From positions 1-34,367 of IMG/VR virus record IMGVR_UViG_3300025168_000022: DNA of 34,367 nucleotides. One strand, 5' to 3'. This DNA is from a virus. Positions 8,472 through 33,182 of the stretch are shown here, in pieces (positions within the stretch are counted from its first letter, which is position 1; every line of letters starts with the position of its first letter). Below the pieces are notes generated by a model. That model was given only the letters and a program-made list of their open reading frames with translations. It was not told where the DNA came from and did no database searches. Made by a program: the position numbers and the translations under genes.

Positions 8472-10270
8472 CTCGCAACCCGCACGGGCCTGGGTACTGC
8501 CACGTCCAGCCTCGTGTCGCCCAGTTCCACCAAGCGATCGATCGGCCGATCACCCGGGACGGTCAACTCGGTTGCCGCCATCAAGTCGAGGTTGGGGTCG
8601 TCAGACACGCCTGACGTCAATGCAGGAGCAGGGTCAGCAGACACTTCTCGCATGAACGCCGCCGCCTCCGTCGGAATGGCAGCAGCATCAGCGTTCAACG
8701 CTCCGGGCGACAAGGTGTTGCCCTTCATGTCCTGCTGGTAGTGGTGGGCGCCGTAGTAGGCGAGCGCCCTGCGTCGAGCGAGGGAGTCTTGGGGGAACTG
8801 TTTGTTGACGGCGTCAACCAATGCAGAGAAGTCGCGAGCGCCGGCCTCCGTCTGGACGTACTGAGCAGCCCAGGACTCTGCTGCGTCCTTCGGCTCGACG
8901 TCGACCCCCAGCTGGTCGCCCGCACCGCCCGCCTCCATGACTCGGCGCATCGCGTAGGGCAGCACCTCGGCCGCGATGGGGTGAACCTGACCCGCGGCTT
9001 GGATCGCCTCAGGGGACACGACGGGCAGCTCAAGCGCCCGACGCGCAGCAGTCTGCATCGGAGACCCGAAGTCCTGAAGGCCCGCCATCTGCTCGTCGAT
9101 CTGCGACAACCGCCCGAGTCCCCGCAGGTACGACTCGTCGTAGAACGCAGCCATGCCACGAGGCAGGCGCTCAAGGTTCCGAGCCTTCTCGTAGGCTGCT
9201 TTCGCCTGGTCGAAGTCGGTGCCCAGCTCTTCGCGCGTTGCAACACCGTCGTCGCGCAGCGCCCCGACGTACCGGTTCAGGAACTCCTGCTCCTGCGCAT
9301 CGAGCGGAGCGGCCAAGCCGTGCTGCTTGCGGTACTCAGCAATCCGGGCAGCCTCGGTGGGGTCAACCGTGCCGTCTGCCATCGCGTCGTCCAGCAGCCG
9401 CTCCAGCTTCACTTGTGCGCTGGACTTGCCAACCGGGTCGGAGGACGCCGCCATCTCGTCTGACCGCATACGATTGAGGGCAACTGTCGGATCGATGTTG
9501 CTGCTCAACGACGACTGCAAGAAGTTCGTCTTGAACTGCTCATCGATGATCTTTGCAACCTCATTACCCGCAGCAGTTGCTTGCGGGACCATCACGCCGT
9601 TGACCTCAACGCGCTCAACCAAGCCCGGAAACTTGCCGGTCATCGTCAGTCGAGACCACAACTCTTCAACAGCAGCAGCCTTTTGCGACTCTGCCACCTT
9701 GTCCTGCGTCGCAAGCGCATCGCCGTACCTGTCAGCTTGTCTGCTGATGGTCGCTATCAGCTGCCTTGCGTCCAGCGTGCGCCCCGGACGAAGATTACCG
9801 TCAGCTAAAATGGCATCGACCAGCCGAGCGTGGGGGCCGGTTGGCTCAAAGCGCAGGTTCGTCGCCAGAATCTGGTCGGTCGTCAACCTCTTGCTGTCGA
9901 TCAACCGCTGCGTGTCAGCCTCGGCCGCCTTCTGGTACACCCCGAGGTTGCCGCCACCACTGCGCCCCGACGCACGCGCACCACCGGACGCACCGCCCCC
10001 TCGGCCAGACGGACCCAGCCCGGTCTCGCGGAAGTTGGACAGCGTCCTGAGTACCTGGTCACGCTCTTTCGAAAGGAGCGCCCGCTGCTCGCTGCGCTGC
10101 TTTGCCTGGAAGGTCTCGTCTTCGAGGATGGTCTGGTAGATCCGCTGTTGCATCGCACCGGGGTGGTACTTGCTGTAGATCTCCAGCGCCTTGGTGAGCG
10201 CGCCCCCACCACCAGCCTCAAGGAAAGACTTGGGCCGGTAGCTCGGGTATGTCGGCTTGGGGAGTGCCAT
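8468..10270 (-). CDS. Internal virion protein, gp15-like in position (600 aa)
   Basis: The second of three consecutive internal virion protein candidates. The N-terminus (MALPKPTYPSYRPKS) is followed by a long, charged helical region. A flexible Gly/Ser/Arg-rich stretch lies near residues 88-110, and then many helices with regularly spaced Arg/Glu/Gln continue to the end. There is no membrane segment or enzyme motif. In T7-like phages the product in this position (gp15) forms the tube-like part of the ejection apparatus together with gp14 and gp16. I infer the same role from gene order, length and composition rather than from residue-level similarity. The start overlaps the stop of the previous gene by one base and the end overlaps the giant gene by ATGA. 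Confidence 0.7.
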   Translation of the reverse strand: MALPKPTYPSYRPKSFLEAGGGGALTKALEIYSKYHPGAMQQRIYQTILEDETFQAKQRSEQRALLSKERDQVLRTLSNFRETGLGPSGRGGGASGGARASGRSGGGNLGVYQKAAEADTQRLIDSKRLTTDQILATNLRFEPTGPHARLVDAILADGNLRPGRTLDARQLIATISRQADRYGDALATQDKVAESQKAAAVEELWSRLTMTGKFPGLVERVEVNGVMVPQATAAGNEVAKIIDEQFKTNFLQSSLSSNIDPTVALNRMRSDEMAASSDPVGKSSAQVKLERLLDDAMADGTVDPTEAARIAEYRKQHGLAAPLDAQEQEFLNRYVGALRDDGVATREELGTDFDQAKAAYEKARNLERLPRGMAAFYDESYLRGLGRLSQIDEQMAGLQDFGSPMQTAARRALELPVVSPEAIQAAGQVHPIAAEVLPYAMRRVMEAGGAGDQLGVDVEPKDAAESWAAQYVQTEAGARDFSALVDAVNKQFPQDSLARRRALAYYGAHHYQQDMKGNTLSPGALNADAAAIPTEAAAFMREVSADPAPALTSGVSDDPNLDLMAATELTVPGDRPIDRLVELGDTRLDVAVPRPVRVAR

Positions 10271-15590: not shown

Positions 15591-16885
15591 GTATGCACCA
15601 GCGTCGAGTACCGACTGAAGCTGTTGGACTCCATGTTGTTCAGCCAGTTGCCCTTGACGATGCGCCTGGCCGGCGAGATCAAGTACCGGCGCTCGAGCCG
15701 CAACATCATTTCGTCGAAGCGGCGACGGTACAGCTCCGACTGCGTCAGGTTGTCGTGCTTGACGAAGATGTCCGACAGTGCCCGATAAGCGATGAGCATC
15801 CGGTGGTCGGGCGGAATGGCCGACACGTCCCCGTCCTCCTGCATCGGCTTGTGTCGCTGCATGTACCGGACAGTGAAGACATAGTCCTTGTCCTGCCGAG
15901 GGTACAGCCGGACGCGCTGAACAAACCCGTCGGTGTACCCCAGGCGCACCTTGTTGTAGAGGCTCTCACCTCCAGTGAAGTCACTGAGGTCGAGACCCGT
16001 GAACGTGCGCGCAGCAATGTCTGTAGCAGCCAGGTCCATCGACTGGCCCGGATTAGTCGGGTCGTCCAGCAAGCGCCACGCATGGTAGCCGTGAGCTGGC
16101 GCCCGGAAGTAGTACCGCTTGCGCAGACCGTCGTTGGCAACGCCGACGAATGGCGTGATGACTGGATCTTGGTTGTCTTGGAAGGTCTGGGTGACAACCT
16201 CGCCGTGCGAGCTTTCCCGGCCGCCCTGAATGTAAGTCGATGTGAACTCCAGGGTACGCACCCCAGCCCCGCCTGCGCCTGCTGTACTGACACTGAAGTT
16301 GCGGCGAGGGCCGCCGATGAACGCTGGGTCGTAGTTCATCCAGTAGATCGGCAGGTTGACCTCGCCCAAAGGCAGGTTGTTCCACTCGTCCTCGTATCGG
16401 GTGAGCGAGGTAAGCATCCCTGGATCGTTGGGTGTGCGAGTGTTCGACCGTCGCGCCACGTTCAGCACCGAAGTGCAGTCGCTCGGGAGGTCGAGGTATC
16501 GGTTCATCACCGTCGATGCGTAGCTGCCGGTGGCGGACTCAAAGCCCCTCTCGATGCGCGCCTGGGTCGTGGAGTCCACCGCGTTGATGCGGTACGTCTT
16601 TCCGTCAGCCTCAACCTCCTGGTTCACCATCCACGACTCGAAGAAGGCTGCGCCGGCCGTGACGACCTGGTTGCCGTTGGTGAACGCAAGCGTTGCGGCC
16701 CGGTCTGTGTACGCTGTGACCTCGACCGCCTTGTTGATGAAGGTGAACGGCTTGGCGAGAAAGATGGACCGGTCTGCCTCGTTGAGCAGGCGATCGATCT
16801 GCCGCTTGTAGGTGTCGTTGTTGGGGTCGTAGTCGAGCACGTTGGCGACGTACTCGCGAAGGGCGCGGAGGTCTGTACCGGACAT
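15587..16885 (-). CDS. Tail tubular protein A / head-tail adaptor, enlarged (432 aa)
   Basis: It forms the adaptor ring between portal and nozzle, the role of T7 gp11. The N-terminal helical part (ALREYVANVLDYDPNNDTYKRQIDRLLNEADR) and the C-terminal helical part with FDEMMLRLERRY flank a long beta-rich middle. At 432 residues it is about twice the length of T7 gp11 (196 aa), so the middle (roughly residues 55-330) looks like an inserted beta domain. The ATG has an AGGAGAG site upstream and lies just after the hairpin terminator that follows the capsid genes. It overlaps tail tubular B by ATGA. I am confident of the role and less so of the domain boundaries. Confidence 0.8.
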   Translation of the reverse strand: MSGTDLRALREYVANVLDYDPNNDTYKRQIDRLLNEADRSIFLAKPFTFINKAVEVTAYTDRAATLAFTNGNQVVTAGAAFFESWMVNQEVEADGKTYRINAVDSTTQARIERGFESATGSYASTVMNRYLDLPSDCTSVLNVARRSNTRTPNDPGMLTSLTRYEDEWNNLPLGEVNLPIYWMNYDPAFIGGPRRNFSVSTAGAGGAGVRTLEFTSTYIQGGRESSHGEVVTQTFQDNQDPVITPFVGVANDGLRKRYYFRAPAHGYHAWRLLDDPTNPGQSMDLAATDIAARTFTGLDLSDFTGGESLYNKVRLGYTDGFVQRVRLYPRQDKDYVFTVRYMQRHKPMQEDGDVSAIPPDHRMLIAYRALSDIFVKHDNLTQSELYRRRFDEMMLRLERRYLISPARRIVKGNWLNNMESNSFSRYSTLVHT

Positions 16886-16901
16886 TGTGCTCTCCTACAA
16901 G

Positions 16902-16931
16902 AAACCCCGCCCCGGCGGGGCCGAAGCGGGG
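16902..16931 (-). terminator. GC-rich hairpin with short T-run between head and tail genes
   Basis: On the minus strand an 11-bp stem (CCCCGCTTCGG with CCGGGGCGGGG, two G-U pairs) closes a 5-base loop and is followed by TTTC. The stem occupies 16905-16931. The gap it fills separates the probable decoration protein from tail tubular A. The short T-run suggests partial termination, reducing tail gene expression relative to capsid genes. T7 has its main late terminator at the same place, between genes 10 and 11. Confidence 0.65.
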
Positions 16932-16954
16932 CGAGCCACTGTGGGGGGAGTGAC

Positions 16955-17461
16955 TCAGAAGGACTTGTGGACCACGACGCGCTTGAGCGTGATGCCCGCA
17001 CCGCCTGCGATGGTTTCAGCCAAGGTGCCGCACGCAGGGAACTGCACACTGGCGCCACCCACGAGGACCGCATCCACCACACCAACGGTGGAGGTGATCT
17101 GCAACTGGGTGCCGATGGCATTGCCTGCGCCGCCCTTGTCGCCAACCTTTGCGTCGCACACACCCTTGATGCACACCTCGATGCGAGCGCCGGCCGTGAG
17201 GTCAGCAGCTCCCGCGAGGGTGGTGTCAAGGGTTCCGACAACAACGCCGAAGGCGGGGCGAATCGGCACAGAGTTGCTGTCTGCCTTGAAGATGCCCAGG
17301 GTGACGTCGCCATCCTGTGCGGCTGCAAGATCGAAAGCTGCCCAGTCACCGACCGCGACAGTTTCCTTGGCGATGAACACCTCGGTCTGACGACGGTTGG
17401 ATGTGGTGACACCGAAGTCGGCGCCGCCGTCGAGCTTCTGGAGAAGATCGTTGGTTGCCAT
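16955..17461 (-). CDS. Probable capsid decoration protein (168 aa)
   Basis: A 168-residue Gly/Ala/Val-rich protein with no charged clusters, beginning MATNDLLQKLDGGAD. Regular short beta strands and turns (GVVVGTLDTTLAGAADLTAGARIEV) suggest a compact beta-barrel. It lies three bases after the capsid gene and before the terminator, so it is transcribed at the same high level as the capsid protein. That place, length and fold pattern fit a capsid decoration or cement protein. It is not clearly any named family, and a head-fibre or minor capsid protein is possible. The ATG has a GGAG site upstream, inside the end of the capsid gene. Confidence 0.7.
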   Translation of the reverse strand: MATNDLLQKLDGGADFGVTTSNRRQTEVFIAKETVAVGDWAAFDLAAAQDGDVTLGIFKADSNSVPIRPAFGVVVGTLDTTLAGAADLTAGARIEVCIKGVCDAKVGDKGGAGNAIGTQLQITSTVGVVDAVLVGGASVQFPACGTLAETIAGGAGITLKRVVVHKSF

Positions 17462-17464
17462 GGT

Positions 17465-18496
17465 TCAGGTCTCCGCGTTGATGAGGACGCCGTGGCCCGA
17501 CAGGTTGCTGGTGCAGATCTGCATCCGCACAGCGATGTCGGAAGACATGGCAGCGTAGCCCGAGATGTTCTCCATGTCCGACAACTCGAACTTGGCGTCG
17601 CGGTCGAAGTACACGTTGAACAGCTGGGAGTTGAGGTAGTACATGCTCATCTTGTTCGCGCCAGCACCACCGGTGAAACCGAGGTTGGGCTCGATGAACA
17701 TGGCCGCGCCGTTGAACTCAAGCGCGAGACGCCCAGCCATGTTGCGCTGCTCGGTGGAACTGACGTACCGCTCAAGCTGCTGCAACTGGTCCTTGTACAG
17801 ACCGTAGCTGATGGGGCTGGCGAGGATAATGTCTACATCTCCCTCGGGGGCGAACTGCTGGCAGTCGATCAGCATGGCCTGCATTTTCTTCAGCCCGTTG
17901 GCTGCGAAGCTGCCGTTCTGCACCTGGTTCTGCCAGGACTTCGGGAAGCCACCCTTCGAGATGCCGCCGACGCTGTTCGTCTGAGCACCGAATGCAGCAT
18001 TGCCCTCGAACCAACCGGTGTCGCCGTTGGCGGTGCCGTCCAGACCGTTGAGGGTCTGAAGGTCGGTCAGGATGGTCGAGTTGCCGCGGATGAGCTGCTT
18101 CTCGATCTCACGCTTGAACATGCCCATCGTCTGCTTCAGCCGAGCCTCGGCGATGCGAATGACGGCGCGAGGCCCCTTGTTGGACAGCTCCTCCTTGCGA
18201 GTGATCACCACCGGTGCGACAGCGTCACACCACGAGTAGGTGGCCGTGCGCAGTGGGTCCTTCACGGCAAGGCTGACTGCCTCGTAGCCTGTCGAAAGCT
18301 GCGTGATAGAGGAGTGATCGGTGAGAATGACAGGGCTGTCGATGTACGAGCCGCCGTCGACATCTTCGACATTGCCAAGCGTCTGAATCGCGTCCAAGAG
18401 CGGGATGATCTTGAACGTGTTGTCCACGTACTTGTCCCGAAGGATTCGCAGTGTAGACGCGAGAATGTCGTTCTGTACGCCAGTAGTGGTAGGCAA
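17465..18496 (-). CDS. Major capsid protein (343 aa, TTG start)
   Basis: The main head protein, presumed to have the HK97 fold like other tailed-phage capsid proteins. The N-terminus contains TLRILRDKYVDNTFKIIPLLD, the long-helix (N-arm) type start. The middle has GDVDIILASPISYGLYKDQ, and the C-terminal part a Gly-rich loop with GFTGGAGANKMSMYYLNSQ. Length matches T7 gp10A (345 aa). It follows the scaffold gene and precedes the decoration protein, the usual head order. The reading frame starts at a TTG; no in-frame ATG occurs nearby and the first internal Met is far inside. A GAGAAG site sits four bases upstream. A TTG start for the most abundant virion protein is unusual. Confidence 0.93.
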   Translation of the reverse strand: MPTTTGVQNDILASTLRILRDKYVDNTFKIIPLLDAIQTLGNVEDVDGGSYIDSPVILTDHSSITQLSTGYEAVSLAVKDPLRTATYSWCDAVAPVVITRKEELSNKGPRAVIRIAEARLKQTMGMFKREIEKQLIRGNSTILTDLQTLNGLDGTANGDTGWFEGNAAFGAQTNSVGGISKGGFPKSWQNQVQNGSFAANGLKKMQAMLIDCQQFAPEGDVDIILASPISYGLYKDQLQQLERYVSSTEQRNMAGRLALEFNGAAMFIEPNLGFTGGAGANKMSMYYLNSQLFNVYFDRDAKFELSDMENISGYAAMSSDIAVRMQICTSNLSGHGVLINAET

Positions 18497-18606
18497 TGAA
18501 CTTCTCGAATGATGGATGCGATGAAGGGGCGTATCCGACAGACAGGCGGGGCCGTGCCGGCGACGTGTCCCGAGGGGTTCACCGGCAGTACAGCCAAACT
18601 ACCTCA
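18497..18606 (-). promoter_or_regulatory. 110-bp leader before the capsid gene, with inverted repeat
   Basis: This is the longest gap inside the late operon. It holds a 6-bp inverted repeat, TGCCGG (18555-18560) and CCGGCA (18582-18587), around a 21-base loop that can form a further small GC hairpin. No T-run and no convincing promoter is visible. It may protect or stabilise the capsid message, or contain a late promoter that I cannot recognise. Confidence 0.35.
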
Positions 18607-22070: not shown

Positions 22071-23611
22071 GTGCTGGTTCTCCATGGGAGCGCCTGGGAC
22101 TTGATCCGAGCGACCTTGCGCTCACGGATGAAGTCCTCCATGTAGCCCGCTTTGGAGTCGCGACGGTGCGAGAGCGGGGCACTACGGACACAACGATAGG
22201 CGAGCGCGAGGGACACGGCAAGGTCGTCGTGCAGCCCAGTGGGGGCTTGTGGCGTCACCTTCCGAACCTCCAGCCCGCGCAACTCCTGTAAGGTTGACTG
22301 GTCGAGCCTGAAGATGATCCCCGCCTTCACATGCTCCCGGAGGCACTCGAAGGCGTCGAGCTTGCTCCGCACCGTTGTGATCCAGGGCTTGCCGCGGGCA
22401 TTCTTCCACAACCGCTTGTACCTCAGCCGGTGAAGCTCGTTGAGAACGACGTAGCCATGGTTGTTTGCCTCGCACAGCACGAGCGCGCTGTTGTACCGGC
22501 GAGCGAGAATGGCGACCTTGGCAGCCCAGTCCACGGGCGACATCTGGTTGGACCGCTCCAAGTACACCGGCTGCATGTTCGTCAGCGACACGATCGAAAG
22601 CGCCGAGTAGTCCTGACCCACGCCGGCCGCGACGTCGACCCCCATGACGTACCCGCACTCATCCTGGGGCTCCTCGAACTCCCGCGCAGGAGAGTCGAAC
22701 CACACCATATCGATCTGGTCGAGGTCTCGCGGGTTGAAGTACGTCGACTCTCGAGTCAGAAACGCGTCGTCCAAGCAGCCCGGGTACTCGCGCTTGAACT
22801 TGTGCGTGCCGAGCGAGGCGACCTGCTGACGGCGCCACCACAACTGCGCGTCGTCCAGACCGTACCGCTCCGACAGATCTTCTTCTTCAAGGTTGCGCTC
22901 GAAGTCCTCGGGGATGCGCTCGTCACGGTACGGCTCGTGCTGCCACCACCAGTACGTGAACACAGTCCAGCCGTTGTCGGGAGCCCCCTCGATGAGGCGG
23001 TGGAAGTCGTCGCCTGGTGCGTTGACCGTGGACTCGATGATGAGCGGCCCGTTGCCGACCGTCGACATCGACTGCGCAAGCACCTCGCCCGCGTCCGTGT
23101 AGAACGCGAACTCCGACAAGTGCGCCCCGCTGAACTCGAACGAGCGCGTGCCGCCCCGACCGCCCGTCGTGAAGCTGGAGAAGCCGGCGAGGGTGTCGTT
23201 GAAGATCGTGTCCTCCGCACTGTCGACCGCGAGCTGGCGGTGCAGTGCCGAAGGCAGCTCGTGCAACCACCGACGATCCATCCGGCGTAGGTTCCGGGCT
23301 GACCGCTCGTGGAAGCTCAACACCGCATACGTCAGCGGGTTGGGGCTGGTGTACGACCGGTGGAACTGCCAGGCACGCACTGCCGTCGAGATGCCGACCT
23401 GCCGAGCCTTGATAACAATGACCCGGTTCGTCTCGTCCATCAGCTCCCACAACCGGCGCTGCGCAGCATTCGGCTCGAAGGGAACGAACTTCTGAAGCTG
23501 CTTGTGCTTGATGCGGAGCATCTGACAGAAGTGCGAGCGGTTGCCGAGCAGGGACGCGACATCTTCCCGAAGGTGCGCCGGGACTGTGTCGGGGACGTAG
23601 GGCTCGGTCAC
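22067..23611 (-). CDS. terL: Terminase large subunit, TerL (514 aa, GTG start)
   Basis: The DNA-packaging motor: an ATPase that translocates DNA into the capsid and a nuclease that cuts the concatemer. The ATPase domain shows a Walker A-like KARQVGIST near residues 68-76, a Walker B-like segment ending at Glu167 (HLSEFAF), and the ESTVN coupling motif near 193. The RNase H-like nuclease domain shows Asp326 (MGVDVAAG), Glu381 (LCEANNHG) and Asp462/Asp463 (LHDDLAVSLALA), the expected three acidic positions. The start is a GTG that overlaps the stop of the preceding small gene (GTGA), so it is probably translationally coupled. The tail overlaps the portal start. Confidence 0.96.
   Translation of the reverse strand: MTEPYVPDTVPAHLREDVASLLGNRSHFCQMLRIKHKQLQKFVPFEPNAAQRRLWELMDETNRVIVIKARQVGISTAVRAWQFHRSYTSPNPLTYAVLSFHERSARNLRRMDRRWLHELPSALHRQLAVDSAEDTIFNDTLAGFSSFTTGGRGGTRSFEFSGAHLSEFAFYTDAGEVLAQSMSTVGNGPLIIESTVNAPGDDFHRLIEGAPDNGWTVFTYWWWQHEPYRDERIPEDFERNLEEEDLSERYGLDDAQLWWRRQQVASLGTHKFKREYPGCLDDAFLTRESTYFNPRDLDQIDMVWFDSPAREFEEPQDECGYVMGVDVAAGVGQDYSALSIVSLTNMQPVYLERSNQMSPVDWAAKVAILARRYNSALVLCEANNHGYVVLNELHRLRYKRLWKNARGKPWITTVRSKLDAFECLREHVKAGIIFRLDQSTLQELRGLEVRKVTPQAPTGLHDDLAVSLALAYRCVRSAPLSHRRDSKAGYMEDFIRERKVARIKSQALPWRTST
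22080..22083 (-). promoter_or_regulatory. Ribosome-binding site deciding the portal start
   Basis: GGAG on the minus strand lies inside the end of TerL, spaced to suit the ATG at 22070 (8-9 bases). The earlier ATG at 22085 overlaps this site and has none of its own. Confidence 0.6.
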
Positions 23612-23832
23612 TTCTGTACGAGCTGCAACACGTTCGCAAGGTCATCGAGCTTCTGCTCGTCCACCTTGTCCTCGTCCAGACTGCCCGCTTTGCGTGCGAG
23701 GTCGAGTACCTTCCACGCTGTGGCAGTGATGGCCTGGTTGACCTTCATCGTCCCCCGGAGGGTGCGCTCGATGCAGGCGATGGCGTCGGGGGCGAGCTTG
23801 AGTAGTGCGGTGTCGATCTCTTGGGGTGACAT
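23608..23832 (-). CDS. Small protein in terminase small-subunit position (74 aa)
   Basis: The first gene of the late block, overlapping TerL by GTGA. It is 74 residues, all helical (DTALLKLAPDAIACIERTLRG, then ATAWKVLDLARKAGSL), with a helix-turn-helix-like middle and an acidic C-terminal end. TerS proteins recognise pac or cos DNA and usually lie directly before TerL. The place suits that, but 74 residues is short, as most TerS proteins have 100-200, so it could be only the DNA-binding part or a different regulator. The ATG has a GGAGG site four bases upstream. Confidence 0.6.
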   Translation of the reverse strand: MSPQEIDTALLKLAPDAIACIERTLRGTMKVNQAITATAWKVLDLARKAGSLDEDKVDEQKLDDLANVLQLVQK

Positions 23833-23996
23833 GTGGCCTCCAACTTATTTGTAACACACGCGCACTTGGATTGGGCTCCCAAGGGGTGGTAGCGAGGGAC
23901 CCGGCATCCGGGGGGTCCCCCCTCCTGGGTCGCACCCGCACCCGCGCCTGCACGCACGCGCCCGCGCACCCACCCGCGTAACGCGCGCCCGCGTAG

Positions 23997-24013
23997 GCAC
24001 GTGATTGACGTGC
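23997..24013. promoter_or_regulatory. Inverted repeat GCACGT-5-ACGTGC
   Basis: Perfect 6-bp arms separated by GATTG, directly left of the large double hairpin. The spacing and symmetry suit an operator for a dimeric regulator, for example one of the phage-encoded HTH or ribbon-helix-helix proteins, but no binding data can be read from sequence. Confidence 0.45.
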
Positions 24014-24017
24014 TGGC

Positions 24018-24074
24018 GCACCTTCTCGCTACGGGTGCAGGGTCTACGGGCTACCCTGCACCTTGAGAAGGTGC
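24018..24074. repeat. Double-arm inverted repeat (57-bp potential cruciform)
   Basis: The outer arms GCACCTTCTC (24018-24027) and GAGAAGGTGC (24065-24074) are perfectly complementary over 10 bp. The inner arms GGTGCAGGGT (24034-24043) and ACCCTGCACC (24053-24062) are also perfect over 10 bp, with a 9-base loop. Small asymmetric internal loops of 6 and 2 bases separate the two stems. The inner arm carries the GGGTGCAGGGT element that recurs to the right. It could be an origin hairpin, a cruciform, or an RNA structure; there is no T-run, so a terminator is unlikely. Confidence 0.85.
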
Positions 24075-24127
24075 TGGTCATGGGGCTTCTCCCCTTTCGG
24101 GTGCAGGGTGCAGGGTACATTAGATAT

Positions 24128-24144
24128 TAGTGGAGTAATCACTA
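24128..24144. promoter_or_regulatory. Operator-like palindrome TAGTG-7-CACTA
   Basis: Perfect 5-bp arms with a 7-base spacer in the AT-rich pocket (TACATTAGATATTAG lies just left). Five bases separate it from the second palindrome. The location between two repeat blocks suggests a regulator site close to a promoter. Confidence 0.4.
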
Positions 24145-24148
24145 CACA

Positions 24149-24167
24149 GAATGAATGGCATTCATTC
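24149..24167. promoter_or_regulatory. 19-bp perfect palindrome, operator-like
   Basis: GAATGAATG, a central G, and CATTCATTC are perfectly symmetric with 9-bp arms. Such compact AT-leaning palindromes are typical of operators bound by small dimeric repressors. The phage encodes an HTH protein (30547) and a ribbon-helix-helix candidate (26961) that could bind it. It lies about 235 bp before the first early ATG. Confidence 0.55.
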
Positions 24168-24225
24168 CGAGAGGTGAAGGGGGCGAAAAGTCCAAGGCAC
24201 CCCGCACCCTGCACCCACCTGGTTC

Positions 24226-24246
24226 ACCTACTGACGGGTAGGTTTT
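24226..24246 (+). terminator. Short hairpin with T-run in the early leader (attenuator-like)
   Basis: ACCTAC (24226-24231) pairs with GTAGGT (24238-24243) around a 6-base loop, and the stem runs directly into TTTT (24243-24246). It would lie in the 5' leader of the early transcript if transcription starts at the AT-rich pocket. The stem is short, so only partial termination or attenuation is expected. Confidence 0.35.
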
Positions 24247-24392
24247 GGCGAGAAGCACGACCAGCACGGGCGAGCAGGACACCCACCCCAAACAGTCTCA
24301 GAAAAACCTTCCCACCACCCAGCGGTACATGCTACACCACTGGTGCCAGCCGTACCAACCGACCCAACGGCACCCAGCGACCCAGCCAACCC

Positions 24393-24399
24393 AGGACAC
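24393..24399 (+). promoter_or_regulatory. AGGACAC ribosome-binding site
   Basis: AGGACAC followed by ACA and the ATG at 24403. This is the first of six identical sites that precede the early genes lacking start/stop overlap. It decides the start of the 85-aa gene against an upstream GTG/ATG option. Confidence 0.7.
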
Positions 24400-24402
24400 A
24401 CA

Positions 24403-24660
24403 ATGACCCTCGCCACAACACACAGTCGCCACAGCAACAGCCACCAGTGGGCGGCGCTCGCCCACCCTGACGGGGCATGGTTTCTGAACGGCACACCCTG
24501 CCGACTCGTCGGTATCCTTGGCTGCGGTTCCGGTGTCTGGCATGCCGACGTTTGGCCAGATGAGCGCCCCACCACATGCCAGCTGGATGCAGCTGCACGC
24601 CTTGGCCTTACCGTCCGCATCTGCGACGAGGTGACAGTGGAGCACGCCTTGCGATCCTGA
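24403..24660 (+). CDS. First early gene, unknown function (85 aa)
   Basis: An 85-residue protein beginning MTLATTHSRHSNSHQWAAL, with Cys/Gly-rich middle (GTPCRLVGILGCGSGVWHADVW) and a helical C-terminal part. I do not recognise a family, and there is no membrane segment. As the first gene after the control region it is likely made earliest, so an anti-host or anti-defence role is conceivable but only inferred from position. The ATG at 24403 is chosen for its AGGACAC site. Its TGA stop forms part of stem I of the first hammerhead ribozyme. Confidence 0.65.
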   Translation: MTLATTHSRHSNSHQWAALAHPDGAWFLNGTPCRLVGILGCGSGVWHADVWPDERPTTCQLDAAARLGLTVRICDEVTVEHALRS

Positions 24661-24711
24661 GTAGCTGACGAGACCGGAAGGTCGAAACGTCCCACACGGG
24701 ACGTCCTACTC
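24659..24711 (+). ncRNA. Hammerhead ribozyme, type I, copy 1
   Basis: Stem I is GAGTAG (24659-24664) with CTACTC (24706-24711). The core CTGACGA is at 24665-24671. Stem II is GACC with GGTC (24672-24675, 24680-24683) closed by a GGAA tetraloop. Then comes GAA (24684-24686). Stem III is ACGTCCC with GGGACGT (24687-24693, 24698-24704), with loop ACAC. C24705 is the cleavage nucleotide, so cleavage is expected between 24705 and 24706. Every invariant core base of the hammerhead is present (CUGANGA, GAA, the A-U pair at the base of stem III, and H=C). Stem I is open, so it is type I. The 5' strand starts inside the TGA of the upstream gene; the downstream product begins with a 23-base leader carrying AGGACAC. 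Confidence 0.93.
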
Positions 24712-24718
24712 TCACAAG

Positions 24719-24725
24719 AGGACAC
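24719..24725 (+). promoter_or_regulatory. AGGACAC ribosome-binding site after ribozyme 1
   Basis: Located 13 bases downstream of the predicted cleavage point and four bases before the ATG at 24729. The AGAGG part can pair with CCUUG before stem I in the uncleaved RNA, so cleavage might expose it. Confidence 0.65.
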
Positions 24726-24728
24726 ACA

Positions 24729-25426: not shown

Positions 25427-25707
25427 CCGCGCTTGCCTTCAATCTCCGGCACACCGATACCCACGTTCAGTATGCATTGTGTGACTGTTGCAGCGCTGGC
25501 GTCGCCAATGACGACTGGACCCACTTGGACGCACAGCCCGAGATGGCCGACGAGAACCACGCGCGCATCGGTGGAACCCTTGAGCTTCTCGGGTGGCTGA
25601 CACCACTCAGCCCGTACGACCCGGGAGGGTACTGGACGTGCGAGATTTGCTGGGAGACCTGCATAGGCTCGGGGCAGGTCTGGGAGGGTGAACGCAGGCG
25701 CGGGTAG
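25423..25707 (+). CDS. Early Cys-rich protein, possible zinc binder (94 aa)
   Basis: A 94-residue protein with two cysteine knuckles, CDCC near residues 19-22 and CEIC-x3-C near residues 74-81, that could bind one zinc ion. Between them lies a stretch with LGWLTPLSPYDPGGYWTCE. I do not recognise the family; small zinc proteins in early regions often bind host proteins or nucleic acids, but that is inference. The start is an ATGA overlap with the previous gene. Its TAG stop lies within stem I of the second hammerhead ribozyme, exactly as the stop of the 85-aa gene lies in ribozyme 1. Confidence 0.7.
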   Translation: MTALAFNLRHTDTHVQYALCDCCSAGVANDDWTHLDAQPEMADENHARIGGTLELLGWLTPLSPYDPGGYWTCEICWETCIGSGQVWEGERRRG

Positions 25708-25755
25708 CTGACGAGGTCGGAAGACCGAAACGTCCCATCCAGGGACGTCCTACCC
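25702..25755 (+). ncRNA. Hammerhead ribozyme, type I, copy 2
   Basis: Stem I is GGGTAG (25702-25707) with CTACCC (25750-25755). The core CTGACGA is at 25708-25714. Stem II is GGTC with GACC (25715-25718, 25723-25726), with a GGAA loop. GAA is at 25727-25729. Stem III is ACGTCCC with GGGACGT (25730-25736, 25742-25748), with loop ATCCA. C25749 is the cleavage nucleotide, so cleavage is expected between 25749 and 25750. Compared with copy 1, stem II shows A-U changed to G-C and C-G changed to U-A, and stem I shows A-U changed to G-C. All these changes keep pairing, while the core and stem III are identical. This covariation is strong evidence for a selected RNA structure. The TAG of the upstream gene forms the 3' half of the first stem I strand. 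Confidence 0.93.
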
Positions 25756-25762
25756 TAACCAA

Positions 25763-25769
25763 AGGACAC
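25763..25769 (+). promoter_or_regulatory. AGGACAC ribosome-binding site after ribozyme 2
   Basis: Located 13 bases after the predicted cleavage point, as in ribozyme 1, and two bases before the ATG at 25772. The conserved distance between cleavage point and ribosome site in the two copies suggests that ribozyme and leader form one unit. Confidence 0.65.
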
Positions 25770-25771
25770 AC

Positions 25772-26020
25772 ATGAACACCCCTTGGAATACCCCGGCAGA
25801 ACTGCGCTCGGCGCTTCTTCTCGACTTACTCGACCGGTGGGAGATTCACTGCGACGAAACCCCGGTATCCGGTGGTCGCTTTCGCTGGGATGAGAACGCC
25901 CGCGAAGCACTGCACGCCGCCGGTCCAGAAGCTCCGGCCGTCGTGTCGGTAGAACGTCTTCTCGCCATGGCGTGCGAGTACCTGACTCGCTTCCCCTCCG
26001 ACCGTGGGAACGCAGCATGA
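25772..26020 (+). CDS. Early protein of unknown function (82 aa)
   Basis: An 82-residue, mildly acidic, mostly helical protein starting MNTPWNTPAELRSALLLDLLDRWE. The middle has a short beta turn (ETPVSGGRFRWDENARE) and the end a helix (SVERLLAMACEYLTRF). No motif is recognised. It is the first gene after ribozyme 2. Its stop overlaps the ATG of a 30-residue membrane protein (ATGA). Confidence 0.7.
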   Translation: MNTPWNTPAELRSALLLDLLDRWEIHCDETPVSGGRFRWDENAREALHAAGPEAPAVVSVERLLAMACEYLTRFPSDRGNAA

Positions 26021-26378: not shown

Positions 26379-26974
26379 CTTTGTACATCGACAGCACGCG
26401 CGGACCCTACCCGGTGCATGTGGGCCAGGCCCTTACGTCTGCAATGGACGCCGAGCACGACGCGCGCACGTATGACGGCCCGCTCGCGGTTGTCGCTCAC
26501 CCTCCTTGCAAGGACTGGGGCAGCTTCGCACACTGGTCGCTACCCGATGCCGACCGCAAGTCCTGCGGTCCTCGCGCGGTCGCTCAAGTGCGGGCGTTCG
26601 GAGGTGTGCTCGAACATCCTGCCCGCTCGCGGTTGTGGATTGAATGCGGACTACCCCGCCCGGGCGAACTGCCCGACAGCCACGGGGGCTGGACACTGGA
26701 GGTCAACCAGTGCGACTGGGGACACCCGGCCCGCAAGAAGACGTGGCTGTACATCGCGGGTGTGGCCCCGCACGAACTGCCCCCCATCCCTCCAGCCCGA
26801 GAGCCTACACACGTCATCGCACCATCGAAGACACCACAGGCGCGGGCTGCTGCCCGTGGCCGACACATCCCAAAGAGCCAACGACACCTGACACCACCAG
26901 CATTCGCCTCGTGGTTGATTGAACTTGCAACGCGCGTCGAGCGCAACCGGAGCACACACCATGTCCACATCTGA
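26369..26974 (+). CDS. Methyltransferase-like protein (201 aa, GTG start)
   Basis: A 201-residue protein with the segment AHPPCKDWGSFAHW near residue 43 and EHPARSRLW near residue 82. These resemble motif IV (PPC, the catalytic cysteine loop) and a following motif of cytosine-C5-type methyltransferases. A third stretch, CDWGHPARKKTWLYI, also recurs in phage proteins of this kind. A canonical SAM-binding motif I (FxGxG) is not evident, so it may be a degenerate or distinct base-modifying enzyme. The GTG start has a GGAGG five bases upstream. Its end overlaps the next gene by 14 bases. DNA modification against host restriction is a plausible but unproved role. Confidence 0.55.
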   Translation: MPVALYIDSTRGPYPVHVGQALTSAMDAEHDARTYDGPLAVVAHPPCKDWGSFAHWSLPDADRKSCGPRAVAQVRAFGGVLEHPARSRLWIECGLPRPGELPDSHGGWTLEVNQCDWGHPARKKTWLYIAGVAPHELPPIPPAREPTHVIAPSKTPQARAAARGRHIPKSQRHLTPPAFASWLIELATRVERNRSTHHVHI

Positions 26975-27197
26975 CGTCCGTCCTCGCATCCCTGCTTCCC
27001 TCGCTCAGCTGCTACGCACCGCTGCAGCCCTCCACCAGTGCCCCACGATCGGCGCGTACCTCGATACTGTTGTGCGTCCTATGGTACGAGCTGACATCGC
27101 CCGGCTACTCTCGACCGACCCGACCCTGGACCTGGCCGCCCCGCCTGCGCCCGAGGTTGTGGTTCCGACCGCGGCTGTGGAATGGAGCGCGAAGTGA
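26961..27197 (+). CDS. Ribbon-helix-helix-like small protein (78 aa)
   Basis: A 78-residue protein with a core reading RPRIPASLAQLLRTAAALHQ, then TIGAYLDTVVRPMVRADIA. One short strand followed by two helices, the second starting at a position like those of plasmid and phage ribbon-helix-helix regulators, is the expected pattern. The C-terminal part is Pro/Val-rich and probably disordered. It precedes the primase-helicase gene, whose start overlaps its stop. It could regulate the early operon, possibly at the palindromes in the divergent region. The family assignment is by pattern only. Confidence 0.5.
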   Translation: MSTSDVRPRIPASLAQLLRTAAALHQCPTIGAYLDTVVRPMVRADIARLLSTDPTLDLAAPPAPEVVVPTAAVEWSAK

Positions 27198-29470
27198 ATC
27201 AAGACAGCCGAGTTGCGCGGGTGTGGCCGACCGCCCCGCCCGACCTGACCTACGTGCAGCAGACCCTGACGGGTGGCACCTACATCTCGACCGGGCTGTT
27301 CCGCCCCAACCAGGTGGACGCTCGCGGTCGTGGCCGCACGATGGAGAATGTGCGCAGGGTCACGTCCCTGTTCTTCGACATCGATCTGCTCGGGCTGTAC
27401 GATGCCGCGCGTGTGGCTCGTGGCACCGTGCTCGAGACCAAGGTGGCTGACCGCAAGGCCAAGCTGTACGCCGAGAAGCCCGCGGTTGTGGCTGCGTTCC
27501 GCAGGCTGATGCGCAACGAGTTCCTGGGCATCATCGAGGACGTGGTGGGCCAGCCCCCAACCCTGGTCATCGACTCGGGCTGGGGCTACCACGCTCACTA
27601 CGCCATCGCCCACGAGATGCAGGCCGAGAAGGTCGCCCTGCGTGGCATCGCTGCCGCCATCATCGACGAGGCCAACCGTCGGGCTGCTGACCGTGCTCGA
27701 ACCATGACGCCGCCCCTGCTGTACGACTGCGCCTTCGACCCGACCCACGATGTCGGCGCCCGGCTCGCCCGTATGCCCGGGACCCTGAACACCAAGTGCC
27801 CCGAGCAGCACCGCAACGTCGAGGTTGTGGCGTCCAGCCCGACAGCCCTCGACCAGGAGGCGCTGCTGTACCTCCAGCGGGAGTACGTGCGGCAAGCACA
27901 GCTCCCCAACAACGAGGCACCCACGGGTGTCGACGTACCCTCGCCCGCCCGACCCAAGCAGTCGCGGTCCATCGACGCGGACTTCCGCTCGATGTCCCTG
28001 CCCGACGGTCGAGGCTGGCAGCAGATTGCATTGAACTTGGCCCCCGGCGACCGCCTGAAGGTTGTGTGTCCGTTTGGCGGATCGACCGTGGGGTCAGGTT
28101 TCTTTGCCTGCGAACCTGATGGGAGGGTGCGCTACTACAGCGGCCCGACCGACACGACGTACTGGAACACGTACACGGCCCCGGCTCGGCTGGGTCGGGC
28201 TGACCTCGTGCGAGGCCCCGACAAGAAGGGTGTGCCCGGCCCCATCCTGAAGACCATCACCAACCTGCTGCGCATGTTCCGAGACGACGAGCAATTCAGC
28301 CTCTGGTACGACAGCTTCAGCGAGCGGGAGATGGACGGTAGCCGGCAGCTGGCAGACACGGATTGGATTCGAGTGCTGTCGCACATGGAGCTGGTCTACC
28401 AGTGGAACTGGCGGCCCGGGAAGGACCAGGTCTTCAGCATCATGGAGTACATCTGCAAGGAGAACACCCGCAACCCCGTGCGCGACTACATGGATGGGCT
28501 GGTGTGGGACGGCGTGCCTCGCATGGACCGCTGGCTGACCGAGGTGTGCCACGTCGAGGACAGTGAGCTGCACCGGACCTACTCGCGGAAGTGGCTCATC
28601 GGTGTGATGGCTCGGCTGTACCTGCCGGGTTCGAAGAACGATTGTAGCCTCCAGTTAGTTGGGGCTCAGGGGTTCGGGAAAAGCACCGTGTTCCGGGCGT
28701 GGGTCGACATCGAGGGGCTGCCCGGCCTGTTTACCGATAGCCGCATCAACCTGAAGGATAAGGACAGCTATATGACGCTGTATAGCTGCCTTATATTCGA
28801 GGACCAAGAGGCAGCCAGCCTTTCCGGCAACCACTACCAAGCGCACAAGGCGTTCATGAGCAGCCAGGAGGACCGGTTCCGCAAGCCCTTCGGGCGCAAG
28901 GTCGAGACCTTCAAGCGGCACACCGTCATCGTCTCTACCTCCAACGAGGTGTCCACCCTGCGCGACCCCTCGGGCGACAGGCGCTGGTGGTGCGTGAGGG
29001 TTCCCGACCGCAAGCACGCCAACCTCGACTGGCTGCGGCAGTGGCGTGACCAACTGTGGGGCGAGGCGGTCGTGGCCTTCAAGTCGGGCGAGGCGTGGTG
29101 GCTCGACCGTGCGCAGGATGCGCAGCGCGCTGTCGCCAACAACGACTTTCGCTACCACGACTGGTACACGCAGTGCGCGCACGTCGTTGCTGCTGCCAAC
29201 GGGGGGGGCCGCAAGAACGGCTTCACCGTCGGACAGTTTGCCAAGGCGATCGATGAGCGCATCGACATGTACCGGGCCGGTCGGAAGCTGTCCGCTGCAC
29301 TCCAGAGCGCAGGCTTCCAGCGGCTTAGGTCCCACGGGGTCACGACCTACTTCACCGAAGGCGAACACCGCCACAACGACAACGGGCTGCTGTCCATCCA
29401 AGGACTCACCCGCACCTCGGCCACTATTCAAGCGGTCGTGGGCCACTGGTCCGACGACATCGCACGCTGA
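27194..29470 (+). CDS. PrimPol-VirE-type primase/helicase (758 aa)
   Basis: A two-part replication protein. The N-terminal archaeo-eukaryotic primase domain shows motif I FFDID (residues about 60-64), motif II SGWGYHAHY (128-136) and motif III DPTHDVGARLARMPGTLNTK (182-201), whose end is the family's RxPGTxN-type signature. A degenerate zinc-like region follows (CPFGGSTVGSGFFAC). The C-terminal VirE-type ATPase has Walker A GAQGFGKST (490-498), Walker B LIFEDQ (533-538), and an arginine-rich segment STLRDPSGDRRWW (587-599). It would prime and unwind DNA, and may also synthesise it. The start is the GTG at 27194, which overlaps the previous stop (GTGA) and has GGAG upstream; an ATG at 27182 would add four residues. 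It lies directly before ERF. Confidence 0.92.
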   Translation: MNQDSRVARVWPTAPPDLTYVQQTLTGGTYISTGLFRPNQVDARGRGRTMENVRRVTSLFFDIDLLGLYDAARVARGTVLETKVADRKAKLYAEKPAVVAAFRRLMRNEFLGIIEDVVGQPPTLVIDSGWGYHAHYAIAHEMQAEKVALRGIAAAIIDEANRRAADRARTMTPPLLYDCAFDPTHDVGARLARMPGTLNTKCPEQHRNVEVVASSPTALDQEALLYLQREYVRQAQLPNNEAPTGVDVPSPARPKQSRSIDADFRSMSLPDGRGWQQIALNLAPGDRLKVVCPFGGSTVGSGFFACEPDGRVRYYSGPTDTTYWNTYTAPARLGRADLVRGPDKKGVPGPILKTITNLLRMFRDDEQFSLWYDSFSEREMDGSRQLADTDWIRVLSHMELVYQWNWRPGKDQVFSIMEYICKENTRNPVRDYMDGLVWDGVPRMDRWLTEVCHVEDSELHRTYSRKWLIGVMARLYLPGSKNDCSLQLVGAQGFGKSTVFRAWVDIEGLPGLFTDSRINLKDKDSYMTLYSCLIFEDQEAASLSGNHYQAHKAFMSSQEDRFRKPFGRKVETFKRHTVIVSTSNEVSTLRDPSGDRRWWCVRVPDRKHANLDWLRQWRDQLWGEAVVAFKSGEAWWLDRAQDAQRAVANNDFRYHDWYTQCAHVVAAANGGGRKNGFTVGQFAKAIDERIDMYRAGRKLSAALQSAGFQRLRSHGVTTYFTEGEHRHNDNGLLSIQGLTRTSATIQAVVGHWSDDIAR

Positions 29471-29490: not shown

Positions 29491-30150
29491 ATGGAACTGT
29501 TTGAACAATCCGACAACGTGAACGAGCTGTACAAAGCACTTGCCACCGCCCAGTCAATGCTGGGTCGGGCCGACAAGGACGGCAAGAACCCGCACTACCG
29601 CTCCCGCTACGCCACACTCACCTCGGTTATCGAGGCAGTACGCCCAGTCTTTGCCGAGCACGGGCTGTCCATCCAGCAGCACCCGCACTTCGACGACGGC
29701 ATGGTCAGCCTCACCACCGTCATTGGCCACGCCTCGGGGCAGTGGACCCGGTCGGTCGCCTCGGTCCCCATCGGCAAGAAGGCGGACAGCCACGCCTTCG
29801 GCTCGTGCGTCAGCTACCTGCGACGCTACAGCTTGGCCTCGGTCGCCTGCCTCGTGCAGGACGACGACGACGGCAACCAGGTCGCACACATCCAGCAGCG
29901 CCGACAGCCCGCGGCCCCTGCCCAGCCGGCCGCCAAGCCGCTCGACTACGACGAGCTTGCCCGTCAGGTCACAAGCCACGACGTCACCTACGAGGAGCTG
30001 TTCGCGTGGTGCGACGCCCACGGTCGAGGCGACCCCGCCCGCTACAACCGTGGACGGCAGCAGCAGCTGCTCGCATGGCTGAGCAAGGGCGGTGCGAACA
30101 CCGTGCAGCAGTGGGCCATCGACAACGCATTGGCTGGGGGTGAGGGATGA
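29491..30150 (+). CDS. ERF-family single-strand annealing recombinase (219 aa)
   Basis: A clear ERF-type single-strand annealing protein. The signature block is intact: GKNPHYRSRYATL (31-43), EHGLSIQQH (56-64), SLTTVIGHASGQW (73-85), and the diagnostic GSCVSYLRRYSLASVACLVQDDDDGN (104-129). ERF forms rings on single strands and anneals homologous DNA during replication-recombination. The C-terminal third is a Pro/Gln/Ala-rich linker followed by a helical domain. Neighbours include SSB, a PD-(D/E)XK nuclease and a RuvC-like protein, giving a complete recombination set in this early block. The ATG is preceded by AGGACAC. Length is typical for the family. Confidence 0.95.
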   Translation: MELFEQSDNVNELYKALATAQSMLGRADKDGKNPHYRSRYATLTSVIEAVRPVFAEHGLSIQQHPHFDDGMVSLTTVIGHASGQWTRSVASVPIGKKADSHAFGSCVSYLRRYSLASVACLVQDDDDGNQVAHIQQRRQPAAPAQPAAKPLDYDELARQVTSHDVTYEELFAWCDAHGRGDPARYNRGRQQQLLAWLSKGGANTVQQWAIDNALAGGEG

Positions 30151-31950: not shown

Positions 31951-32760
31951 ATGGACACAACAACAATGACAGAAGCCGAGTACCGGCTGCTGCCCGCCAT
32001 CAACTACAGCAACCTCAAGCACATGCGATCCAGCCCGCTACACTTCCGGCACAAGGTGGAGGTGGGCGACGAGCCGGGACTGAGCGAGAAGCTGGCAGTG
32101 TACCGGGCCATCCACACCCTGGTGCTTGAGCCCTTCATGTTCGATGAGGAGTACGCCGTCTGTTCCATGCGCCGCGACAAGCGCACGAAAAAGTACCAGG
32201 AGTTCCTGGCTGAGAACGAGCGCAAGTCAATCCTCTCCGAAGCCGAGCACGAGCAAGCCGTGGCGGTTTCCGAGGCGGTCAATGACCACGAGTGGGTGCA
32301 GTGGATGTTGGGGCTGCCCGGCACCTCGACTGAGCAAGTGCTGGTGTGGGACGACAGCAAGGCCGGCGCTTGCAAGGGCAAGGCAGACATCATCCACTAC
32401 AGCCCCGAGCAAGGGCTCATCATCGCGGACCTTAAGACCACACGGTCGACCGACACCCACCACATCCGCACGACAGCAGGACGCTCGGGCTGGCACCTCC
32501 AGTTCGCCCACTACCTGCAGGGTGCCGCCCGACACTTCGGCATCAAGCTCGACGAGGTGCGATACCGGGCCTTCACCGTCGTGGCCGAGGCCGCAGCCCC
32601 GCACGACGTGTCTGTCGTAGAGTGGGGCGGAGCCACCCTCGACGCCGGCTTCATCCTTCACCGCTCACTCCTCGACCGTCTTGTCGACTGCGAGGACAAC
32701 CAAGCGTGGCCTGGTCGCGCTTCCCACCAAAGCCTGGACCTTCCAGACTACCTACTCTGA
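31951..32760 (+). CDS. PD-(D/E)XK nuclease, RecE/exonuclease-VIII-like (269 aa)
   Basis: A restriction-fold nuclease of the type found beside phage annealing proteins. Active-site residues are in order: Asp146 in GKADIIHY, then Asp160 and Lys162 in LIIADLKTTRS, followed by a helix with LQFAHYLQGAAR that fits the QxxxY motif of RecB/exonuclease-VIII-like families. The N-terminal region has the helix ELR-type stretch YSNLKHMRSSPLHFRHKVE, which resembles the YCAS-exonuclease family start. It would produce single-strand tails for ERF. It lies between the RuvC-like gene and SSB. Length is normal for the family. Confidence 0.85.
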   Translation: MDTTTMTEAEYRLLPAINYSNLKHMRSSPLHFRHKVEVGDEPGLSEKLAVYRAIHTLVLEPFMFDEEYAVCSMRRDKRTKKYQEFLAENERKSILSEAEHEQAVAVSEAVNDHEWVQWMLGLPGTSTEQVLVWDDSKAGACKGKADIIHYSPEQGLIIADLKTTRSTDTHHIRTTAGRSGWHLQFAHYLQGAARHFGIKLDEVRYRAFTVVAEAAAPHDVSVVEWGGATLDAGFILHRSLLDRLVDCEDNQAWPGRASHQSLDLPDYLL

Positions 32761-32766
32761 GGACAC
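32760..32766 (+). promoter_or_regulatory. AGGACAC ribosome-binding site before SSB
   Basis: AGGACAC overlaps the last base of the nuclease stop and lies two bases before the ATG at 32769. It decides the SSB start against a longer in-frame reading. Confidence 0.65.
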
Positions 32767-32768
32767 CA

Positions 32769-33182
32769 ATGCCTGCATACATCACAATCACAGCCCGACT
32801 GGCGCGCGACCCTGAGTTGCGCGAAACCCCGCACGGCAAAAGCATCTGCGAACTCACGCTCCCCAACGACACCGGCTACGGCGACAACAAGCTCACCACC
32901 TGGTGGCGCGCCTCCATCTGGGGCAAGCGTGGAGAGAATGCCGCCAAGTACCTGCGCAAAGGCAGCTGGGTCACTGTCACCGGAGAGCCAAGCCTGCGCA
33001 AGTACAGCAAGAAGGACGGCACCGAAGGCAGCAGCCTCGAAGTCAACGTCCACGACTGGGGCTTCTGTGGACCGAAGCCCGAAGCTCAGGGGCAACAGGA
33101 CCGGCGCCCCAAGCCGGCACCCCGCGCGTCTCGCCCCGACGGGTGGAACCGCGAGCCCGTGCAGGGTGACATCCCGTTTTAG
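32769..33182 (+). CDS. ssb: Single-stranded DNA-binding protein (137 aa)
   Basis: An OB-fold SSB. The N-terminal domain (ITARLARDPELRETPHGKSI, then WWRASIWGKRGENAAKYLRKGSWVTVTGEPSLRKY) follows the bacterial SSB pattern of strands and turns. A basic, disordered linker is followed by a C-terminal tail ending in DIPF, the usual tip that contacts other replication proteins. It would coat single strands made by the helicase and nuclease and cooperate with ERF. The start is fixed by AGGACAC. It is the last early gene, and its TAG overlaps the stop of the endolysin gene on the other strand. Confidence 0.93.
   Translation: MPAYITITARLARDPELRETPHGKSICELTLPNDTGYGDNKLTTWWRASIWGKRGENAAKYLRKGSWVTVTGEPSLRKYSKKDGTEGSSLEVNVHDWGFCGPKPEAQGQQDRRPKPAPRASRPDGWNREPVQGDIPF
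33179..33182. other. Interlocked stop codons of the two converging gene blocks
   Basis: TTAG serves both strands: TAG ends the SSB gene on the plus strand, and TAA ends the endolysin gene on the minus strand. There is no room for a conventional terminator on either side, so the two transcripts must run into each other's genes, or be ended by Rho or an internal coding-region structure. Confidence 0.85.

Follow-up and report, generated by a model that had tools for sequence, protein, structure and literature searches.

The divergent region of this viral genome (the window, 34,367 nt, complete and circular as judged by a 149-bp terminal repeat) carries six copies of an 11-bp repeat, arranged in inverted groups around the least stable duplex of the genome. 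Because this mirrored layout recurs in dozens of related viruses, the region is the likely place where the encoded helicase starts copying DNA. We consider it probable that it is a replication origin, at which a PrimPol/VapE-like helicase would recognise the repeats as iterons through its C-terminal domain, assemble on them and melt the AT-rich pocket. Four features of an iteron origin are present: several short direct or inverted repeats, an adjacent easily melted AT-rich element, an encoded AAA+ type putative initiator helicase, and retention of the repeats in relatives. The elements of the region are the following.

23608–23832, minus strand: small protein encoded before terL, called terS by position; it has no family match and is conserved in relatives
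23833–24402, no strand: divergent non-coding region, defined by the ORF layout, which is matched in relatives
24018–24074, no strand: nested hairpin, its inner stem formed by repeat copies 1 and 2; the outer stem is not fully conserved
24033–24043, plus strand: repeat copy 1, GGGTGCAGGGT, left half of the inner hairpin; conserved in the relative L022
24053–24063, minus strand: repeat copy 2, one mismatch; perfect in L022
24099–24116, plus strand: repeat copies 3 and 4, an overlapping tandem with a 7-bp period (GGGTGCAGGGTGCAGGGT)
24117–24175, no strand: AT-rich pocket, candidate unwinding element with the palindromes TAGTGGAGTAATCACTA and GAATGAATGGCATTCATTC; largely conserved in L022
24199–24216, minus strand: repeat copies 5 (one mismatch; perfect in L022) and 6, an inverted tandem pair

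The 570 nt at 23833–24402 are free of coding sequence and separate the leftward terS/terL genes from the rightward early operon. Within them, GGGTGCAGGGT occurs six times between 24033 and 24216 (four exact copies and two with one mismatch, spanning 184 bp), and no further copy was found elsewhere in the 34.4-kb genome with up to one mismatch allowed, which agrees with the six-copy cluster reported in a preliminary description. The copies start at 24033+, 24053−, 24099+, 24106+, 24199− and 24206−, so that a hairpin pair (+ −) and a tandem pair (++) are followed by the pocket and then by an inverted tandem pair (−−). In the surrounding 480 nt the most frequent 9-mer occurs eight times, compared with a mean of 3.2 and a maximum of 4 in dinucleotide shuffles. 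The element is also the top dyad of the genome (score 11 versus 9 for the runner-up), a score above those of all 60 shuffles, whose maximum was 6. The exact 18-mer GGGTGCAGGGTGCAGGGT matches 11 viral contigs in addition to L022. Searches for Rfam families and tRNAs found none.

At all widths tested, the pocket between the inverted groups has the lowest duplex stability in the genome, with its 60-nt minimum at 24115–24174; at a width of 40 nt it lies ~5 standard deviations below the genome mean. The AT-rich pocket described earlier is therefore also the weakest duplex genome-wide. The double hairpin noted in the same description is real as a fold (24015–24078, −22.7 kcal/mol, z −7.0), and its inner stem consists of two inverted repeat copies, but it is not the conserved feature: L022 has lost part of the outer 10-bp stem. 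In L022, a close relative, terL and the helicase gene are 92–94% identical to those of the window. Each of its six repeat copies is perfect, though two are imperfect in the window, while the spacers differ, as does much of the outer hairpin arm, indicating that it is the repeats that are maintained and not the hairpin. Most of the pocket is also retained, including the GAATGAATGGCATTCATTC palindrome, and given the changed spacers, it is the repeats and the pocket that seem to be under selection.

The retention of the repeats extends well beyond this pair. Relatives were collected from viral contigs by a terminase search (17 loci) and a helicase search (52 loci), and ~45 related uncultivated viral contigs have a common gene order. 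The arrangement terL-terS, element, early operon with helicase was present at 45 of the 51 helicase loci, counted as terS and/or terL upstream on the opposite strand; the other six are cut off upstream. Dyad symmetry exceeded that of all 60 shuffles in 39 of 46 divergent regions, with its centre usually on the AT-rich pocket. The seven loci without a significant dyad (L045, L047, L069, L090, L008, L009 and L012) include looser-spaced members of the window's own subclade. As many of the loci are near-duplicates, these counts correspond to ~20 independent cases. Spacings are exactly equal on both sides in several genomes, such as L063 (38/88/38) and L070 (38/86/38). The repeat words themselves are alike inside each genome and different between genomes, changing in concert: GTGCAGGGT is found in many relatives, GGGACGGGT in L060/L066/L083, AGTGCGAGGT in L014/L048, ACAGTGCAA in L071/L073 and TGAGGGGTAT in L081. 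Conservation of the repeats in relatives, a check that had been proposed for the origin, is thus in its favour, with the architecture shared by dozens of genomes and the words co-changing. Searching named phages at the DNA level returned no match and the bacterial genome contigs scanned contained no relative, so neither search yielded a cultured relative or a host; named phages show distant similarity only, in the helicase and the terminase.

Several other features were observed in these genomes. Just upstream of terS, a block at 23854–23891 on the minus strand (TACCACCCCTATGGAGnCAAATCC) is conserved in L006–L009, and TACCACCCCTATGGAGnCAAATCC-like pieces lie between terS and terL in L012/L014/L017/L020; the block is a possible late promoter or packaging signal. 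L005 has two genes inserted between terS and terL (8443–9647) that are missing from the window, one of which resembles QueC of 7-deazaguanine synthesis (SGGLDS and CxxC motifs). Near, yet apart from, the iteron element of L081 are four TTTACAATGTAAA-type palindromes (8414–8578) that look like a distinct operator. A ~72-nt intergenic repeat with a hairpin-like centre occurs at 24656–24728 and 25701–25772 on the plus strand of the window, with a shared ACACACA leader before early genes; L022 has three. A 968-aa open frame (15593–18499, plus strand) runs antisense to the virion genes, and its similarity is conserved in relatives; it is probably a shadow of the coding strand.

The plus-strand genes whose products bear on replication and on recognition of the repeats are the following.

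26961–27197, plus strand: small ribbon-helix-helix (RHH)-like protein, rival or accessory binder, conserved just upstream of the helicase
27182–29470, plus strand: PrimPol-like and VapE-like helicase, proposed repeat-binding initiator (PF05272, PHROG helicase, PDB 7pds, AEP-like motifs)
29162–29470, plus strand: C-terminal domain of the helicase, residues 661–762, candidate repeat-reading domain, whose divergence best tracks repeat divergence
29491–30150, plus strand: ERF-like single-strand annealing protein (PF04404; phrog_2324)
32622–33182, plus strand: SSB (PF00436, E 4e-19; phrog_44), its true start probably inside the ORF

The helicase has a VapE-like core with matches to PF05272 (E 3e-60), PDB 7pds (E 6e-48) and a PHROG helicase family; the PF05272 and 7pds homology identifies it as an AAA+ type putative initiator. 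In its N-terminus the AEP-like motifs FFDxD, SGWGxHxH and RxPGSxNxK are invariant; the AEP assignment is based on these motifs and a weak PHROG match (E 2e-4), and a PDB search for an AEP match to this part returned none. Among the proteins scanned, none was recognised as a DNA polymerase, in keeping with the earlier statement that the genome encodes a PrimPol-helicase and an SSB and lacks a polymerase.

Three candidate binders are conserved clade-wide: the helicase, the RHH-like protein upstream of it, and terS. Using arms extracted automatically from 16 loci, Mantel tests related repeat distance to the C-terminal domain of the helicase (r 0.38, p 0.001; p 0.0055 when controlling for the other helicase domains), where the p values come from several tests with shared ancestry only partly corrected and domain boundaries set by eye. 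The corresponding values for the RHH protein were p 0.14 and a partial p of 0.49. Repeat divergence thus appears to track the C-terminal domain better than the rest of the helicase or the RHH protein, although the effect is modest. An earlier test with hand-picked arms was weaker (r 0.28, p 0.011 for the C-terminal domain). In a sliding scan, helicase residues 666–755 gave the top value (0.486), but one terminase segment reached 0.395 by the same measure, so the covariation is suggestive and not proof. Specificity-determining positions were enriched in the C-terminal domain for the L061 repeat type (Fisher p 0.0002) and not for the L060 type (p 0.29), and L053 and L060 have similar C-terminal domains with different repeat words. 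Taken as covariation between sequences, these data suggest the C-terminal domain as the candidate repeat reader.

If the region is an origin, the helicase would recognise the 11-bp iterons through this domain and assemble on the two inverted groups as two rings facing each other across the pocket, which it would melt before unwinding outward in both directions. It may then prime DNA synthesis, with a host polymerase extending the primers. As the two operons diverge from this site, binding probably also regulates both promoters, and would repress or activate both operons. Nucleotide skew adds little to this picture. The GC-skew check suggested with the preliminary description did not support it, as the detrended cumulative extremes lie at 11.1 and 18.6 kb and not at 24.1 kb; an AT-skew minimum does fall at 24,102, but divergent transcription is a confounder there. 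The origin proposed in that description is partly supported: the repeats are retained and a helicase and an SSB are present, while GC skew lends no support and the double hairpin is not the feature that is kept.

Tandem and inverted short repeats are typical targets of RHH proteins, and the site lies at the divergence point, so the repeats could instead be operator sites for an early regulator, for instance the RHH-like protein at 26961–27197, with replication starting elsewhere. The protein would bind the inverted groups cooperatively and switch the two divergent promoters. Its gene adjoins that of the helicase at 46 of 52 loci, including the window, and TTGAC-like words occur in the outer arms of several relatives. 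We nevertheless regard this explanation as unlikely. In the Mantel tests the RHH protein shows no significant relation to repeat divergence, and the repeats of L060 and L089 differ despite nearly identical RHH cores, which argues against this protein reading the core word. A search of the region for sigma-70-like promoters gave no match, and the separate conserved block beside terS (23854–23891) is a candidate for the leftward promoter or another signal. In addition, the RHH identity is based on a sequence pattern and, for relatives, on ParD/NikA/TacA1 matches below threshold. The origin and operator readings are compatible with each other.

Much less probable is a packaging signal of the pac/cos type, in which the adjoining small terminase binds the repeats. 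In most relatives the element directly precedes the terS candidate; in L018, however, the terminase genes are separated from the element by intervening genes, and the element keeps its place at the divergence point. The terS candidate is ~74 aa long with no recognised DNA-binding domain, and loci with differing repeats show no increase in the divergence of TerS relative to TerL (1.86 versus 1.89). Moreover, TerL is similar to terminases of the T4 type, which use headful packaging. Contig ends that fall near terS in relatives were assessed as possible packaging ends and rejected, since they are scattered. RHH proteins are centromere binders in some plasmids and the arrays are iteron-like, but an RHH-bound partition or plasmid-like maintenance site serving a plasmid-prophage state is very improbable, as no ParA-type ATPase was among the matches in a scan that covered part of the ORFs.

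We put forward more tentatively, as a possibility that we rate below the origin reading for the window itself, that mirror-symmetric origins are common to a whole uncultivated phage lineage, with the PrimPol-helicase acting as two facing rings, the words and the C-terminal domain co-changing, and the same site serving as an early/late transcription switch. If this is true, origin words and the C-terminal reading domain change fast enough for lineage-specific replication. To our knowledge, the origins of phages encoding PrimPol/VapE-type helicases have rarely been mapped. The element offers a defined ~200-bp candidate with dozens of natural variants for comparison, which make initiator specificity testable by swapping repeat words and C-terminal domains.

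The origins of SV40 and papillomaviruses have inverted binding sites around an easily melted centre and a double-hexamer helicase, and in phage P4, with its ori/crr system, the alpha protein binds short repeats in direct and inverted orientation. The window resembles the former in its inverted sites flanking an easily melted centre, although the double hexamer is here only proposed; it differs from P4, which has two distinct sites and another type of primase. A further difference from SV40 and papillomaviruses is that their origin-binding domain is N-terminal (PMC7581432). P4 alpha and the helicase of the window are alike as primase-helicase fusions, alpha combining primase and initiator helicase in one protein (PMC7145576). 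The SaPI origins of the PICI satellites and their Rep/Pri proteins share with the window several short iterons and an AAA+ helicase encoded by the mobile element itself, which in the window is a putative initiator; in SaPI Rep, as in SCCmec Cch2, the iterons are bound by the C-terminal domain, and SaPI binding has been proposed to involve two hexamers (PMC7581432). In SaPIs the rep gene is directly followed by the origin (PMC7581432), whereas the element of the window precedes the helicase gene by ~3 kb and sits in a divergent promoter region, and no repeat copies lie downstream of that gene. The window also differs from SaPIs in having a PrimPol-like domain fused to its helicase and in being a free phage and not a satellite. 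At the putative SCCmec origin, Cch2 is a self-loading helicase that uses its C-terminal domain to bind direct repeats lying downstream of its own gene (PMC7581432), as we propose for C-terminal repeat binding by the helicase of the window; Cch2 belongs to another helicase subfamily (Primase_Cterm/D5_N) and has a separate primase, CCPol-MP. The origin reading would connect free phages with SaPI Rep and Cch2, initiators of the satellite type.
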